From a virus, in the IMG/VR virus record IMGVR_UViG_3300042902_000155, positions 1 to 22,034 of that record: a stretch of DNA of 22,034 nucleotides; one strand, 5' to 3'. A model generated the notes under the pieces. That model made no database searches and had not been told where the DNA came from. It saw nothing but the letters and a program-made list of their open reading frames with translations. A program made the position numbers and the translations under genes. Shown here piece after piece: positions 14,837-21,132 of this stretch (positions within the stretch are counted from its first letter, which is position 1; every line of letters begins with the position of its first letter).

Positions 14837-17272
14837 TTAACGTGGGTCAAATTCCCCTAAATCAAAACCATCTAAGCTATCTTCATTTGATTCAAAAATT
14901 AATGGAGGTAAGTTATTTTTTCTTTGATTTATAAGTTTGGATTGTTGAGTATTTTGAAGACTAATACGCTTATCTTTAGCATCTTCTTTTAATTGTTCTT
15001 TTTCAACTATTTTTCCGCCCTGCATATTATTTAATTCTAAAGTATAATTAAACTCCTCAGCCATTAAATGAGATTTTAACTCAGCCTCTACTTGCATAGT
15101 CTTAATATTATACTGAGTCTCCATTTCCTTTAATTGCATTTTCATATCCAATTGAGACTGCATATTTTGCATAGCTGTTTGCGCAGCCATTTGCTGAGAC
15201 TGAAGTTGTTGCTGAGAGACCATTGCTTGCTTCTGCATTTGCATCTTCTCTTCTCTATCTTGCTTCTTAATTCTCTTTTGTTTTAATAATTGATTTGCAA
15301 GTTTAAGATTTCTAAGTTCACGAATATCAATAGCATCTTCAAGATTAATATCTCCTTTAGATAATGCCATTTGAACATTGCCTTCAAGTTGTGCTTTTTG
15401 TTCTTCATCAGGTGCAACTTCAATAAAAATACCAAAATCATATATATATAAGTCAGAAATATCATTTAATATAGAAACGTTATATCTACCTATTTGATTT
15501 ATAAACTCATCTTTAAAGTCTGAATATTCTAAAATATCTCCAATTCTGTATGTTAATGCCTCAGCCATTGAGCGAAAAATAAATAGTCCACCTTCAAGTA
15601 TGTGTCGAGTAGCTGTATTTGAGTTCAAAGCTGCTAACTTTTGTAAGCCAACTAATGAATTAGGGTCAGGAGTAGAACCATCTCTTGCTTCGTTAAGACC
15701 TGTTACAGTTCTAATCATATCCATATAATGATTGTAATTTGTAATAAGCATTTGAGTCTTTCCTGTTCCATTATTAGAGTTTAACTGAGTAATTGGAACT
15801 TTAGCATTATTAAAATCTCCATCTTGAGTAAAACTTCTTCCAACAACAGAACCTGTTTGGAAATAAAGTCTTAAAGCATCTTCGGGATTATAAGCTGCTC
15901 CATTTCCTAAATCAACCTCATTAAGTCCATCTGCATCAATAAATACACCATCAGGAACTACTCTATTAATTACTTGTTGAAGTTTCAAATGAGTAAGTTG
16001 AATAAGGTCAGCAAAAGGTATCATTCTACGAACTAAAGACTCTATAGCTCCTTTGTACATCCTTGGAGCACAAGCTATATAGTTTGGCAATGCGTGTTGT
16101 GATGCGGATTTTGGTCTAACCATATTCTCGGACATTTTCCATTGCAAAAGAATATTGGTTCCCATTACCATAATACCTTCATACCATACATCAATAGTTT
16201 TTTCAATCTTTTCAAAATTACCTTCTTCCATCATTTGCGTTGGAGGGTTGAAAGTATCGTCTTTTTCTATTACACGAGAACCGCCATTTTCAAGTATTTT
16301 CTTTTTATAAACTATTTTTTTAGTAGTTTTATAATTAAAGTACATTAATGTACAAGTGTCTCTTGAGAATACACTATTTTCATAAAATTGAGCTACATTA
16401 AAATAATCATACCACGATTGGCTATATTGAGTTATTTCTTGTAAATCTTCTTTAGTAAGTTTTTGGTCAATCTTCATTAACTCAGTTATCGCCATAGTTT
16501 TAATCTCTCCCCAATAGAAACAGTCTCTGAAATAAGGGTCTTCAGTATAGCTATAGACAACATTTGCAGGGTCTACATAAGATATTTTAACTCCTGTTCC
16601 TTGAAGAAATTCGTGTTTTGATATTGATATACCAAGAACAGTAGCGTCATAATCAAGTCGTTTGCGAATCTCATCATAATGATTAACATCAAACATTGTA
16701 TTTAGAGCTTCTTCTTCAGCAATTTCAATAGCCGGTTTATAATTTAATTGCATATATAATGCTAATTCTTCATCAGTATTCGGCAATTCATCAGGGTCCA
16801 TAACAAAAGGGTCAACGCCTGATAAGTCTTTAATCTTTGTTAAGATTTCTTTACCTGCCATTTGAGACTCCATCATCTCCTGATATTTATTTCTTTTAGC
16901 TTGAGACATAGCATCTTGTGCGTATGCTTTAACCTTGAATAATCTTTCAGACATTCCATTAACAACAATGTCAACAAATTTAGGAATAATAGGAACAGGG
17001 GTCCAATCTAAGTTTAAATATGATAAATCGCCATCAATAGCTAATTCATTTTTATATTTACCCACTCCTTGTTCTCCTCTTGCATATAGTCTTAATCTAT
17101 GAAATTCTTTCCACTGACCATAATATCTGCAATTATTTCCATCTTTTCTAAACCACTCATATTGAATAGCCTGACCAACTTGTAATCCAAATTGTTGAGA
17201 TGCTTTTTCTGAATCAGTAGCTAGCTGACTTGGAAAGGCTGACGATGTAATATCTATTGTTACGTTTTTCAT
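14837..17272 (-). CDS. Portal protein
   Basis: The 811-aa protein directly follows the large terminase, overlapping it by four bases (ATGA), so the two are translationally coupled. The portal-like core includes the N-terminal wing (40-115: WKEFHRLRLYARGEQ, then VPIIPKFVDIVVNGMSERLF). The long central helix at 410-440 (AIESLVRRMIPFADLIQLTH) leads to VVPDGVFIDADGLNE, and the crown approach is at 520-580. After residue 660 comes a Gln/Met-rich, probably coiled-coil extension (about 663-740) followed by a charged helical tail, resembling the C-terminal barrel of large podoviral portals such as P22. The protein forms the dodecameric vertex through which DNA passes. The size fits the ~800-aa portals of crAss-like phages. 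Confidence 0.92.
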   Translation of the reverse strand: MKNVTIDITSSAFPSQLATDSEKASQQFGLQVGQAIQYEWFRKDGNNCRYYGQWKEFHRLRLYARGEQGVGKYKNELAIDGDLSYLNLDWTPVPIIPKFVDIVVNGMSERLFKVKAYAQDAMSQAKRNKYQEMMESQMAGKEILTKIKDLSGVDPFVMDPDELPNTDEELALYMQLNYKPAIEIAEEEALNTMFDVNHYDEIRKRLDYDATVLGISISKHEFLQGTGVKISYVDPANVVYSYTEDPYFRDCFYWGEIKTMAITELMKIDQKLTKEDLQEITQYSQSWYDYFNVAQFYENSVFSRDTCTLMYFNYKTTKKIVYKKKILENGGSRVIEKDDTFNPPTQMMEEGNFEKIEKTIDVWYEGIMVMGTNILLQWKMSENMVRPKSASQHALPNYIACAPRMYKGAIESLVRRMIPFADLIQLTHLKLQQVINRVVPDGVFIDADGLNEVDLGNGAAYNPEDALRLYFQTGSVVGRSFTQDGDFNNAKVPITQLNSNNGTGKTQMLITNYNHYMDMIRTVTGLNEARDGSTPDPNSLVGLQKLAALNSNTATRHILEGGLFIFRSMAEALTYRIGDILEYSDFKDEFINQIGRYNVSILNDISDLYIYDFGIFIEVAPDEEQKAQLEGNVQMALSKGDINLEDAIDIRELRNLKLANQLLKQKRIKKQDREEKMQMQKQAMVSQQQLQSQQMAAQTAMQNMQSQLDMKMQLKEMETQYNIKTMQVEAELKSHLMAEEFNYTLELNNMQGGKIVEKEQLKEDAKDKRISLQNTQQSKLINQRKNNLPPLIFESNEDSLDGFDLGEFDPR

Positions 17273-19548
17273 TTGATTAATTGACTTGTTGAACCATCAT
17301 TAGAATACCTTGCGAAGTTAATACTTATTTTTGAATCTTTTTTCTCAGGCATATATAAATGCTTCTGATTAGCCATAATAGCTAATCCTGAACTTATAGA
17401 CGCATCAAATTTAGTTCTGTCATTTATATCAAACTTTGCCCAATCTTCTAATGTTCTTGTAAAAGGCATAGTACCCATATCTCCTCCATCTCTATAATCT
17501 CCTGTAAAATCTATACCAACATATTTTTCTATGTAAGATTCAATTGCAGATGCGTGAGATTGTTTTACATCTTCGGATGAGTTTGGTATTCCTCCAAGTT
17601 CACGTTCAGTTTTTGTTAGTTTATTGTATTGTTTATCGGGTCTATTTAGACAATAATGCCTATACCCTCTATTTTTAAAGTGATAAAGTAATCTAGGTTT
17701 ATTGTTCTCAATTAAAATTGGCATACCATAAAACACACAAGCCATCAAAACTTCTTCAAAAAATATTTCGGCAGTTTGAGGTCTTGCAACGTATTCTAAA
17801 AAAAACTCATTTGAAGGAGCATCATCCATATTAAATTTAGTAAGTCCGTGTAAAGCACCATTAGAGCCTCTGCCACCAACTACTGCTGATATGTCATAAC
17901 TATCGCATCCAAATGACCCAATATGTTCATTTCCGGGATGTTTTACTCCATTTCTAAAATGAATATTATTTTGTAAATGTTTCGCAGGGGTCCAAGCAAC
18001 TACAAACCTACCCCTTATATCAGGAGTGAATACAACTTTAGTGTCTTTCATACCATCTCTCCAATGAAAAGACCCACGAGTAGTGAAGTGTTCTTTTATT
18101 AGACTATCGTTATAATCAATTTGTTGGTATATTTTAGTAAGGTTAAATAGAGATTGTTTACTTTCATCTCTAAATGCGTGAGATTCAGTTCTTGGAAATT
18201 GACGATAAAATTCATTTAATGCATCAGCATCATTTTTAAGAGAATCTACTTCAGCTTCCCAATAATTTATAGCTCCATTCTTTATCATCATATTATCTAC
18301 CCCTATAATAGAAGATTCAGGTTTGTAAAAAACAGGCATACCGTATCTATCTATAAACCCCTCCATATTCCATTCCATAGGTATAAATAAAGCATACAGT
18401 CCACTTTTAGTTTGACCATTTGCATTACGATTTTTAACATTGGAATCTTCAAACATATCTTTATAATTCTGACCTCCTTTTGATAATGCATTTGAAGTTG
18501 AGCCCATCATACATTTTCCAATAATTTTAGACCCTAAACGCAAACAAGTTTTAGTTACTCGCCAATTCTCTTTAATGTTATTTGGCTTGGTCCATTTTCC
18601 TGACTCATCGTGAGCTAAAAATAATAACTTTTCTCCATCATAGGAGTTGTCTTCTGTGTTTTTCCAATCTATTGATGTATCTAATCCCTCTATGATTTCA
18701 TTTTCTGTGTCATACATATTTTTCTTTGTAATCTTAGAAGCAGGGACACGGAAAGCTAGTTCTGTCTTTGGCTTATCCATACCATCCATAATAGGTTTAA
18801 AGAAAAATGGAAGTCTGCTATTTATAGGAACTACTTTATCAGTAAACATTTTTTTAGCATCAGACCCGGTCTTTGACAAAATACCAATCCTTGCATCACG
18901 AGCAAGAGTACCTACGTTTACACATTCAGATGAAGACATAAATGAGAATCCTGAACGTCTAATCTTTAGGTATATCATACCAAAACTTCTTGAGTCCGCT
19001 CTACAGGCTTCCCAAAAAATCCAATATATTCTATTTGCTTCACGAAAATCAGGATAACCAATATCAATACTCGACCATTGAAGATACATATAGTGAGAAC
19101 CTGTTATGTATGTAGGGACTCCATTATTCATAAACCACACTCCATTTTCTCTACAATCAAATTCATTTTCAATATAATCAACCCATCTATTCTTAAAATC
19201 AGATGGCATTTCATTCCATTGAAATATTGATTGTATTCTTAAAAGTTGTTTTGGAAGTAATTCTCTTTCCCAATATTGTTCAGCTTTTGAATTGTGTCTT
19301 TGAAGACACTTTTTTGGAGTAGGCGGCAATGCAATATAAAGACCTGCAATACATACAACATCTCCTATCTGTCCTGTTTTAGATATTACTATAACATCAT
19401 ATTTATCATTATAACCATATATCCAAGATTTATTACCATTCTTTTTAGTAATAGAATGGGCAGGTATGTAATCCTTAACTACAGTATATAAACTATTTAG
19501 ACCTTCTTTCTGCAAACCCTTGTTTTGTATCAGTTTTACTTCCTCCAT
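17269..19548 (-). CDS. terL: Terminase large subunit (packaging ATPase-nuclease)
   Basis: The 759-aa motor of DNA packaging. Numbering from the ATG at 19548: an atypical Walker A-like segment KIRRSGFS (195-202), Walker B LLFLAHDE (308-315, catalytic D314/E315), and a coupling motif GSTSN (349-353). The C-terminal RNase-H-like nuclease has FGCDSYD (546-552, D549), E614 in LIENN, and a late acidic DGGD (687-690). The frame continues upstream to a TTG at 19563, but the ATG at 19548 is the better start. Either start overlaps the end of the 94-aa gene by at least 56 bases, out of frame. It ends in an ATGA junction with the portal gene. Confidence 0.95.
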   Translation of the reverse strand: MEEVKLIQNKGLQKEGLNSLYTVVKDYIPAHSITKKNGNKSWIYGYNDKYDVIVISKTGQIGDVVCIAGLYIALPPTPKKCLQRHNSKAEQYWERELLPKQLLRIQSIFQWNEMPSDFKNRWVDYIENEFDCRENGVWFMNNGVPTYITGSHYMYLQWSSIDIGYPDFREANRIYWIFWEACRADSRSFGMIYLKIRRSGFSFMSSSECVNVGTLARDARIGILSKTGSDAKKMFTDKVVPINSRLPFFFKPIMDGMDKPKTELAFRVPASKITKKNMYDTENEIIEGLDTSIDWKNTEDNSYDGEKLLFLAHDESGKWTKPNNIKENWRVTKTCLRLGSKIIGKCMMGSTSNALSKGGQNYKDMFEDSNVKNRNANGQTKSGLYALFIPMEWNMEGFIDRYGMPVFYKPESSIIGVDNMMIKNGAINYWEAEVDSLKNDADALNEFYRQFPRTESHAFRDESKQSLFNLTKIYQQIDYNDSLIKEHFTTRGSFHWRDGMKDTKVVFTPDIRGRFVVAWTPAKHLQNNIHFRNGVKHPGNEHIGSFGCDSYDISAVVGGRGSNGALHGLTKFNMDDAPSNEFFLEYVARPQTAEIFFEEVLMACVFYGMPILIENNKPRLLYHFKNRGYRHYCLNRPDKQYNKLTKTERELGGIPNSSEDVKQSHASAIESYIEKYVGIDFTGDYRDGGDMGTMPFTRTLEDWAKFDINDRTKFDASISSGLAIMANQKHLYMPEKKDSKISINFARYSNDGSTSQLIK

Positions 19549-19777
19549 TTTCGGCAATATCAAGACTTTCTCTTTCAGATTCTATTCTACTAAGAATCTC
19601 AAACGCATCAAATATAGCTAATTTTTTTGTAGCCGCTGCGTTCTTTAACTTATCCGCAGCCAAGTCATCTCCATCCATATCAGGATTCAATATAGATTCT
19701 TCGGCAACTTTTATAAGTTCCAATACTGCTTTATGACCGGCAGCAATAATTTTTAATTTTGTTTCTTTAGGTGTCAT
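19493..19777 (-). CDS. Small conserved-looking protein, candidate terminase small subunit
   Basis: This 94-aa protein is largely helical: residues 8-30 (LKIIAAGHKAVLELIKVAEE), an acidic loop DMDGDDLAADK (33-43), and a second helical region 44-70 (LKNAAATKKLAIFDAFEILS). The tail is polar and basic (QGFAERRSK). It sits directly before the large terminase and overlaps its start by 56 bases, and starts four bases after the oxygenase stop. Small terminases are short, helical and often precede the large one, so the role is plausible. No helix-turn-helix DNA-binding motif was confirmed, so the call stays tentative. Confidence 0.6.
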   Translation of the reverse strand: MTPKETKLKIIAAGHKAVLELIKVAEESILNPDMDGDDLAADKLKNAAATKKLAIFDAFEILSRIESERESLDIAENGGSKTDTKQGFAERRSK

Positions 19778-19781
19778 ACGA

Positions 19782-20348
19782 TTATCTATAAAACATTACA
19801 TACACCATTCTGCCTTCTTTCCAACCCGTGTTTGGATATTTACTATGAAAGTAATTAGAAGGATACATAAGTGCACGATTAGGTCTATATCCTACTACAG
19901 AATGTAAATCCCAATTATCTAAATTATTTGCTTCTTCTGAAAGAAACCTATCGGCTTCTTCGTTAGACACATCTAAAGGCATCTCATAACCTATATCTTT
20001 ATGCTTCCAAAAAGCGGTTCCGTGGAGCCCTTCTTTTGTTGATGGAGATATATATAGCACGAGTGCTCTTTCAGGTCTAATATCGCCTACTTTTGAGTCT
20101 GCGTGTATTCTCCAATCAGTATCGAACTCTTCAGTTGCTACTCTAAAGAAACCTAAAAGACACTCTCTTTTAGTTTTGTCTATATCGCTTAATTTATTGA
20201 TAATAAAATTATCAAATTCTTTATTGCTATATTGAACCCAAAACTTCTTATCCCCAACTTCAACTTCTTGAAATTGATTACTCGTCAAACTATTATAGAT
20301 GTAGTTATAAATATCTTCATTTAAAAAATCATCTACAATATTTATCAT
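19782..20348 (-). CDS. 2-oxoglutarate/Fe(II)-dependent oxygenase (prolyl-hydroxylase-like)
   Basis: The 188-aa protein has the complete metal triad of a 2OG-Fe(II) dioxygenase: H82 and D84 in RIHADSK and H168 in SNYFHSKYP, plus R180 in GWKEGRMVYVMFYR as the expected 2-oxoglutarate anchor. The N-terminus (INIVDDFLNEDIYNYIYNSL) is the usual helical opening, and RALVLYIS plus HGTAFWKHK form core strands. Such enzymes hydroxylate or demethylate proteins, nucleic acids or small molecules; the substrate here is not predictable. The gene overlaps the GroES-like gene by four bases (ATGA) and precedes the terminase genes, placing it in a late packaging operon. Related oxygenases are known in marine phages. 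Confidence 0.82.
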   Translation of the reverse strand: MINIVDDFLNEDIYNYIYNSLTSNQFQEVEVGDKKFWVQYSNKEFDNFIINKLSDIDKTKRECLLGFFRVATEEFDTDWRIHADSKVGDIRPERALVLYISPSTKEGLHGTAFWKHKDIGYEMPLDVSNEEADRFLSEEANNLDNWDLHSVVGYRPNRALMYPSNYFHSKYPNTGWKEGRMVYVMFYR

Positions 20349-20908
20349 AGCTTCATTGTTATTTGATGGTCATACATACGGTATAGCTTTTCTCCATCAA
20401 CAGTAAACTCATATTCGCTGTCGGGAGAAAAACAAACATAATCGCCTTTTTTAATTCCTTTATTTAATAGATACTCATTTGGATATACCATCTGCCCCAT
20501 TAAAGGTTCTTCAGCTAAAAATTTTTCTATGTAATATTCTGTAGCAGAAATTGGTCTAACAAAACAATACTTGTCGTAAGCATTCCAAGTAGACCCTTTT
20601 TTATACATAAAGAATTGGTCTGTCTCTATAAAGAATAAATCATCTTTAAAGAAACTCTTTCCGCTTTTTTGACGACCTCTCATATCATTATAATACTTAA
20701 AAGCATTATGATGTACAAGAAGTGTGTCTCCTATTGATATAGGACCGTTGTAGCTTATGGGAAGCTCGACAACCTCGGCATATCTATTAGAGAATTTATA
20801 ATCCTCTTCTGAAGTACTGACTATAAAATCAACCACTCCTATATCTCTTGTGTTATCGTATCGCTTTCCATTCGTAGGTTTTACTATGAAGTAGAATGGA
20901 GATTTCAT
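20345..20908 (-). CDS. Putative tandem GroES-like co-chaperonin
   Basis: The 187-aa protein contains what looks like two GroES folds in tandem. The C-terminal half (114-187) shows the classical order: YCFVRPI strand, a loop (121-136) where the chaperonin-binding mobile loop sits, MGQMVYPN, then IKKGDYVCFSPDSEYEFTVD and GEKLYRMYDHQITMKL. These match the GroES pattern of a GKV strand, V-x-x-GD-x-V-x-F, then a dG-E-x-Y/L strand and the final D-I-L segment. The N-terminal half repeats it: FIVKP, loop (12-40), RYAEVVELP, ISIGDTLLVHH, KDDLFFIETDQFFMYK. Co-chaperonins cap GroEL; phage versions such as T4 gp31 help fold capsid protein. The assignment is by pattern, not search. It overlaps its neighbours by 1 and 4 bases. 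Confidence 0.58.
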   Translation of the reverse strand: MKSPFYFIVKPTNGKRYDNTRDIGVVDFIVSTSEEDYKFSNRYAEVVELPISYNGPISIGDTLLVHHNAFKYYNDMRGRQKSGKSFFKDDLFFIETDQFFMYKKGSTWNAYDKYCFVRPISATEYYIEKFLAEEPLMGQMVYPNEYLLNKGIKKGDYVCFSPDSEYEFTVDGEKLYRMYDHQITMKL

Positions 20909-21132
20909 TAAAAGTCTATGTTATATTCAATTGAAATTGGCATAGGAGCAGTAAACTCTTTCCAAAGAACTACTTCTTCTTTTATATTTATAATATAAAT
21001 TAGCACGGAGTTAAATTCATTTCTCTTAATAAGATGAATTAAATTTGAATCCCCAAGTATTTTTTGACCAACTATGTAGTGCATAGCACCACTTTTGTAG
21101 TCAGGACCTATTGATATTTTACGAATATCCAT
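20908..21132 (-). CDS. Small hypothetical protein (74 aa)
   Basis: I do not recognise the function. The protein opens MDIRKISIGPDYKSGAMHY, then alternates short strands (VLIYIINIKEEVVLW) with polar turns and ends FTAPMPISIEYNIDF, suggesting a small beta-rich fold. It shares one base with both neighbours (TAATG junctions at 21132 and 20908), so it is translated together with the 136-aa protein upstream and the GroES-like protein downstream. No signal peptide or metal motif is present. Confidence 0.72.
   Translation of the reverse strand: MDIRKISIGPDYKSGAMHYIVGQKILGDSNLIHLIKRNEFNSVLIYIINIKEEVVLWKEFTAPMPISIEYNIDF

Follow-up and report, generated by a model that had tools for sequence, protein, structure and literature searches.

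A tailed-phage protein with two GroES domains in tandem, a likely Cpn20-type co-chaperonin

The window analyzed here, a 22,034-nucleotide (22 kb) fragment of a tailed-phage genome whose host is probably a member of the Bacteroidota, encodes a protein with two GroES domains arranged head to tail in a single chain. Structure and profile comparisons make this tandem architecture very probable. The protein is likely to serve as a double GroES (Cpn20-type) co-chaperonin, acting as the lid of a chaperonin cage. The coordinates of the gene, its domains and its conserved neighbors are given in Table 1.

Table 1. Features of the tandem GroES gene and its surroundings (positions in the window)
Feature	Position	Strand	Basis
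Tandem GroES-domain protein, 187 aa	20345..20908	-	PHROG match, AlphaFold model, structure searches, purifying selection
N-terminal GroES domain, residues 1-106	20591..20908	-	AF2, Foldseek, VIA, hhalign
N-domain mobile-loop region, residues 12-41, with hydrophobic triplet	20786..20875	-	Alignments; low pLDDT at 31-40
V-H-H-N motif, residues 65-68	20705..20716	-	N-domain conservation in the family
C-terminal GroES domain, residues 107-187	20348..20590	-	Profile against host GroES and PDB GroES; VIA Z
C-domain loop, residues 121-136, shortened mobile-loop remnant	20501..20548	-	Alignment, clade comparison
Terminase large subunit, downstream, marks the packaging operon	17269..19563	-	PHROG_6681, E 7e-182
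Upstream conserved partner ORF, 74 aa, 1-nt TAATG overlap with the tandem gene	20908..21132	-	Synteny

The family itself is not new. It is abundant in phages and already carries the name 'co-chaperonin GroES', the annotation of PHROG_13932, which matches residues 1-179 of the window protein (E 4.1e-22). Members of this PHROG include gp89 of Cellulophaga phage phi38:1, gp101 of phi19:3 and gp33 of the Flavobacterium elemo phages, and relatives in the elemo and Cellulophaga phages are labelled either 'co-chaperonin GroES' or 'chaperonin cpn10'. The window protein shares with these members both the family over its full length and the position upstream of the terminase, but they are annotated as GroES/Cpn10 only, and the two-domain build is absent from those annotations. 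New in the present analysis are the tandem build and the finding that viral records with this gene mostly encode GroEL and a single GroES as well. Double GroES proteins of this head-to-tail kind were previously described for the plastids of plants and parasites; no description of a tandem GroES in phages was found in the open-access papers searched. Searched alone against Pfam, NCBIfam and the PDB sequences, the window protein gave nothing above cut-off; PF00166 exceeds the Pfam cut-off in phi19:3, phi38:1 and locus L089, while the window protein falls below it.

The gene is under strong purifying selection, with dN/dS values of 0.04-0.11 between the window and eight relatives. Together with the presence of related proteins at no fewer than 594 stretches of viral contigs, this identifies the ORF as a real gene.

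Two GroES domains in one chain

The full-length AlphaFold model (pLDDT 78.5) found its best PDB matches by Foldseek in algal chains that carry the names Cpn20 (E 6e-5) and chaperonin 23 (Cpn23, E 6e-4). By VIA, the Cpn20 chain 7ekq_R aligns with residues 1-187 of the model at Z 10.1, with an rmsd of 5.1 for 158 residues. Among viral proteins whose structures had been predicted independently, four match over their full length, including the 'chaperonin cpn10' of phi18:3 (E 8e-13), and rank ahead of single GroES domains. A GroES beta-barrel is predicted in each domain, in models as opposed to solved structures. An internal-repeat comparison of the N and C halves gave a weak similarity that is not significant by itself.

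The C half is clearly GroES-like by sequence. Its profile matches host GroES with an E-value of about 2e-10 (hhalign, profile against profile), and the family profile matches thermophilic GroES chains in the PDB over residues 115-186 (E 9e-5). In a survey of 296 Bacteroidota genomes, the family profile matched host GroES genes across the phylum, finding GroES-length genes through its positions ~105-186. Structural alignment agrees, with Z 8.3 to 1wnr (VIA).

The sequence signal of the N half is marginal. Its hhalign comparison with GroES is collinear over residues 1-104 at E 0.009, and the score of 19.9 was reached by none of 200 column shuffles (mean 11.0, s.d. 2.2). The N-half profile found no GroES in the PDB by HMMER, and evidence from the fold was therefore needed. 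Residues 1-107 modelled alone (AF2, 65 sequences) reached a pLDDT of 83.7, and the 19 best PDB matches of this model were all GroES/Cpn10 (Foldseek; best E 0.014, probability 1.00). In VIA-align the 15 best rows were likewise all GroES, in register from one end to the other with Z 6.0-7.7, followed by the GroES-like domain of dehydrogenases; T4 gp31 is among the matches (1g31/2cgt, Z 7.0-7.1, rmsd from 1.8). Z values up to 7.7 are modest, and chance matches occur in this range; what counts here is that the matches are so uniform and keep the same register. On this modelled evidence, the N half is GroES-like by fold.

These results bear on an earlier note, made from the letters alone, that had proposed a tandem GroES as in Cpn20. 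The 187-residue ORF is present at 20345-20908, and its strand, which that note did not give, is minus. The GroES strand order proposed for both halves is seen in the AlphaFold models, and fold searches of the PDB return GroES/Cpn10; structure prediction and structural search of the whole protein and of its halves gave the GroES beta-barrel in each. The G-D motifs lie at residues 60-61 and 155-156, as read, and the likeness to Cpn20 is borne out by the tandem Cpn20 being the best solved-structure match of the full-length model. Other points held in part. A profile search with both halves succeeded clearly for the C half, but for the N half was marginal by hhalign and empty by HMMER; the terminal E-x-L/F strand is inexact in the C half, which ends in DHQITMKL although it follows the GroES strand order. 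Of the two mobile loops proposed, the one in the N domain (12-40) is full and sits at the mobile-loop position with its hydrophobic triplet, while that in the C domain (121-136) is shortened and has lost T-x-S-G-I.

Mobile loops, roof and conserved motifs

Across 66 diverse sequences, the loop of the N domain is long and has, at the position of the GroES mobile-loop motif, a hydrophobic triplet that is conserved: FIV in the window protein and LIL or LIV in relatives, these three versions accounting for most of the set. Residues 31-40 have low pLDDT in both the full-length and the N-alone models. Compared with GroES, the C-domain loop has lost about six residues; in the alignment the T-x-S-G-I part is deleted, and the remnant aligns with what remains of the GroES mobile loop.

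This short C-domain loop is found in three clades, namely those of the window, of the elemo phages and a large marine clade. A long loop is present in phi19:3 (SLIYIPEDNKEK), in loci L089 and L090 (GSIIVPNSGETHKG and similar), in phi38:1 and in L344. The loops of phi19:3 (SLIYIPEDNKEK) and L089 (GSIIVPNSGETHKG) resemble that of the host (GIIIPDTAKEKP), and of the records in which no GroEL was detected these two are the longest. A link between loss of the C loop and possession of a phage GroEL is suggestive, comes from two lineages only, and is not claimed here.

The segment of the roof hairpin is absent from both domains in the alignments, which leave no room for a hairpin. Within the V-H-H-N motif of the N domain, N68 is invariant in the family and H66-H67 are conserved at 90% or more; nothing in host GroES corresponds to this motif. 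In the marine clade (L186, L262-L341), the tandem proteins also have a conserved extra C-terminal tail, approximately KYEYQGxExEYNPSW, that is missing in the window clade.

Genomic company and neighborhood

GroEL is also encoded in 26 of the 31 viral records that carry the tandem gene, and a separate single-domain GroES lies elsewhere in 29 of them; some of these records are fragments, so the absences are not firm. Both genes are present in all nine window-clade records of at least 59 kb (near-full-length). This association is not a background effect, since a search with the elemo phage GroEL as query found a GroEL in just 253 of 50,697 phage records, 68 of which are elemo isolates. The 22-kb window contains no GroEL, but a fragment of this size is too short to inform on its absence. 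In the near-full-length record of the relative L003, the tandem gene lies ~13 kb from groEL. The dedicated single GroES adjoins GroEL in these phages, and the GroES-docking residues of the phage GroEL are, on inspection, partly changed.

The late packaging operon that the earlier note had described is indeed the setting of the tandem gene, which shares its strand with the genes for terminase, portal and virion structural proteins and lies directly upstream of them. Wherever the sequence of a representative extends far enough, the large terminase subunit is found downstream, and the order small ORF, tandem gene, terminase is kept in nearly all of 65 representatives. The small upstream gene encodes ~72-84 residues with the motif RKISIGxDYK...AMHYxVGQ, and in most representatives the two genes share the 1-nt TAATG overlap. 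Its 74-residue version in the window matched no PHROG, Pfam or NCBIfam family.

Two further ORFs lie between the tandem gene and the terminase on the minus strand. One, of 188 residues (19782-20348), encodes a minor-coat-like protein (DUF6445/PHROG); its absence from the relative MW202828 points to an insertion in the window's lineage. The other, just upstream of the terminase (19493-19777), encodes 94 probably helical residues and occupies the position expected for a small terminase subunit, with no clear family match.

The tandem gene also occurs in assemblies labelled as archaea (L173, CP070801.1, an archaeal MAG chromosome), Aliivibrio, Nitrosomonadaceae and others (MAG loci L174-L187). 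These are most likely phage contigs mis-binned into MAGs, as the survey of 296 Bacteroidota genomes found the full-length protein only in the MAG in which it was already known; all other matches there were GroES-like and fell in the C half.

Proposed role, alternatives and known systems

As a co-chaperonin, the protein would assemble into a ring-shaped lid, either by itself or together with the single-domain GroES of the phage; three tandem chains and one single chain, for instance, would supply seven domains. The putative docking elements are the N-domain loops, which would bind the phage (or host) GroEL. Such a lid could enlarge or specialize the folding cage for late structural proteins, a candidate substrate being the 476-aa virion structural protein at the capsid position, comparable to gp23 for T4 gp31.

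The main argument for a different role is the near-constant synteny. It raises the idea that this GroES fold no longer serves GroEL and instead helps, along with the small upstream gene, to assemble heads or package DNA, whether as an assembly factor, say, or as an adaptor ring at the terminase or portal. The gene order and overlapping start and stop codons in the 65 representatives would fit such a role, as would the dedicated GroES already present beside GroEL, the degenerate loop in most clades and the near-invariant HHN motif that GroES lacks. We nevertheless regard this as unlikely, given that the mobile-loop triplet of the N domain is kept across clades and that co-occurrence with GroEL is near-obligate. 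Capsid-folding chaperones may moreover adjoin head genes for reasons of timing, and the phi38:1 protein lacks a virion label while its neighbors are labelled structural by similarity to phi18:1, which is a weak point.

Two other readings have far less in their favor. A GroES fold confined to the C half, with an unrelated look-alike beta domain as the N half, would account for the failure of the N-half profile to match any GroES by HMMER, the hhalign E of just 0.009 and the weak similarity between halves. It sits poorly with the GroES/Cpn10 identity of the 19 best Foldseek and 15 best VIA matches of the N-alone model, with a collinear alignment over 1-104 that scores above all 200 shuffles and with the full-length match to Cpn20; we consider it highly improbable. 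The algal Cpn11/20/23 complex sits on chloroplast ClpP (PMC8889267), and it is from this ClpP-bound complex, 7ekq, that the top-scoring Cpn20 chain comes, which could hint that the phage protein caps or inhibits a ring-shaped protease of the host, ClpP for example. No tandem GroES chains other than those of 7ekq are among the matches, however, so they would come out best whatever the function, and no pointer to ClpP was seen in the phage genomes. This role is hardly credible.

Under the favored co-chaperonin reading, a more specific scenario can be offered tentatively. Phages may have independently built the chloroplast-type trio, with single and tandem GroES co-assembling in mixed seven-domain lids in which some domains have no functional loop; the resulting cage would be asymmetric, without a roof and adapted to capsid proteins. 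The tandem protein may also be redundant or have another job, as these phages already possess a single GroES. The gene sets suggest that such phages bring all the folding machinery that their head proteins need.

Among known systems, T4 gp31 has no roof and a long mobile loop (PMC6318259). The window protein resembles it as a likely phage co-chaperonin, roofless and of GroES fold, although only its N domain has the long loop. With its one domain, gp31 works on the host GroEL, whereas here the domain is doubled and the phages mostly have their own GroEL. Phages EL, OBP and AR9 likewise encode chaperonin systems, but those of EL and OBP reportedly function with no co-chaperonin, while here GroEL is accompanied by two kinds of lid.

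The closest counterpart is plastid Cpn20/Cpn21/Cpn23, which shares the two GroES folds and a chain of ~190 aa and gives the best full-length structural match. Plastid Cpn20 is used beside a GroEL-type chaperonin and a single Cpn10, and the phages carry the corresponding genes: GroEL, single GroES and tandem match chloroplast Cpn60, Cpn10 and Cpn20. In plastids, Cpn10 and Cpn20 combine into seven-domain rings that contain both (PMC5780408). The phage protein differs in lacking the roof, in its shortened C loop in most phage clades and in an identity to Cpn20 of only ~15%, which makes an independent origin more likely; the phage tandem is probably a separate fusion. An abundant phage family, cultured and uncultured, with its own GroEL and single GroES would offer a bacterial model for mixed-lid assembly. 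Tandem GroES proteins, descriptions of which come mainly from plastids, are the case for asking how lid domains that come in even numbers can match the seven-fold GroEL ring.
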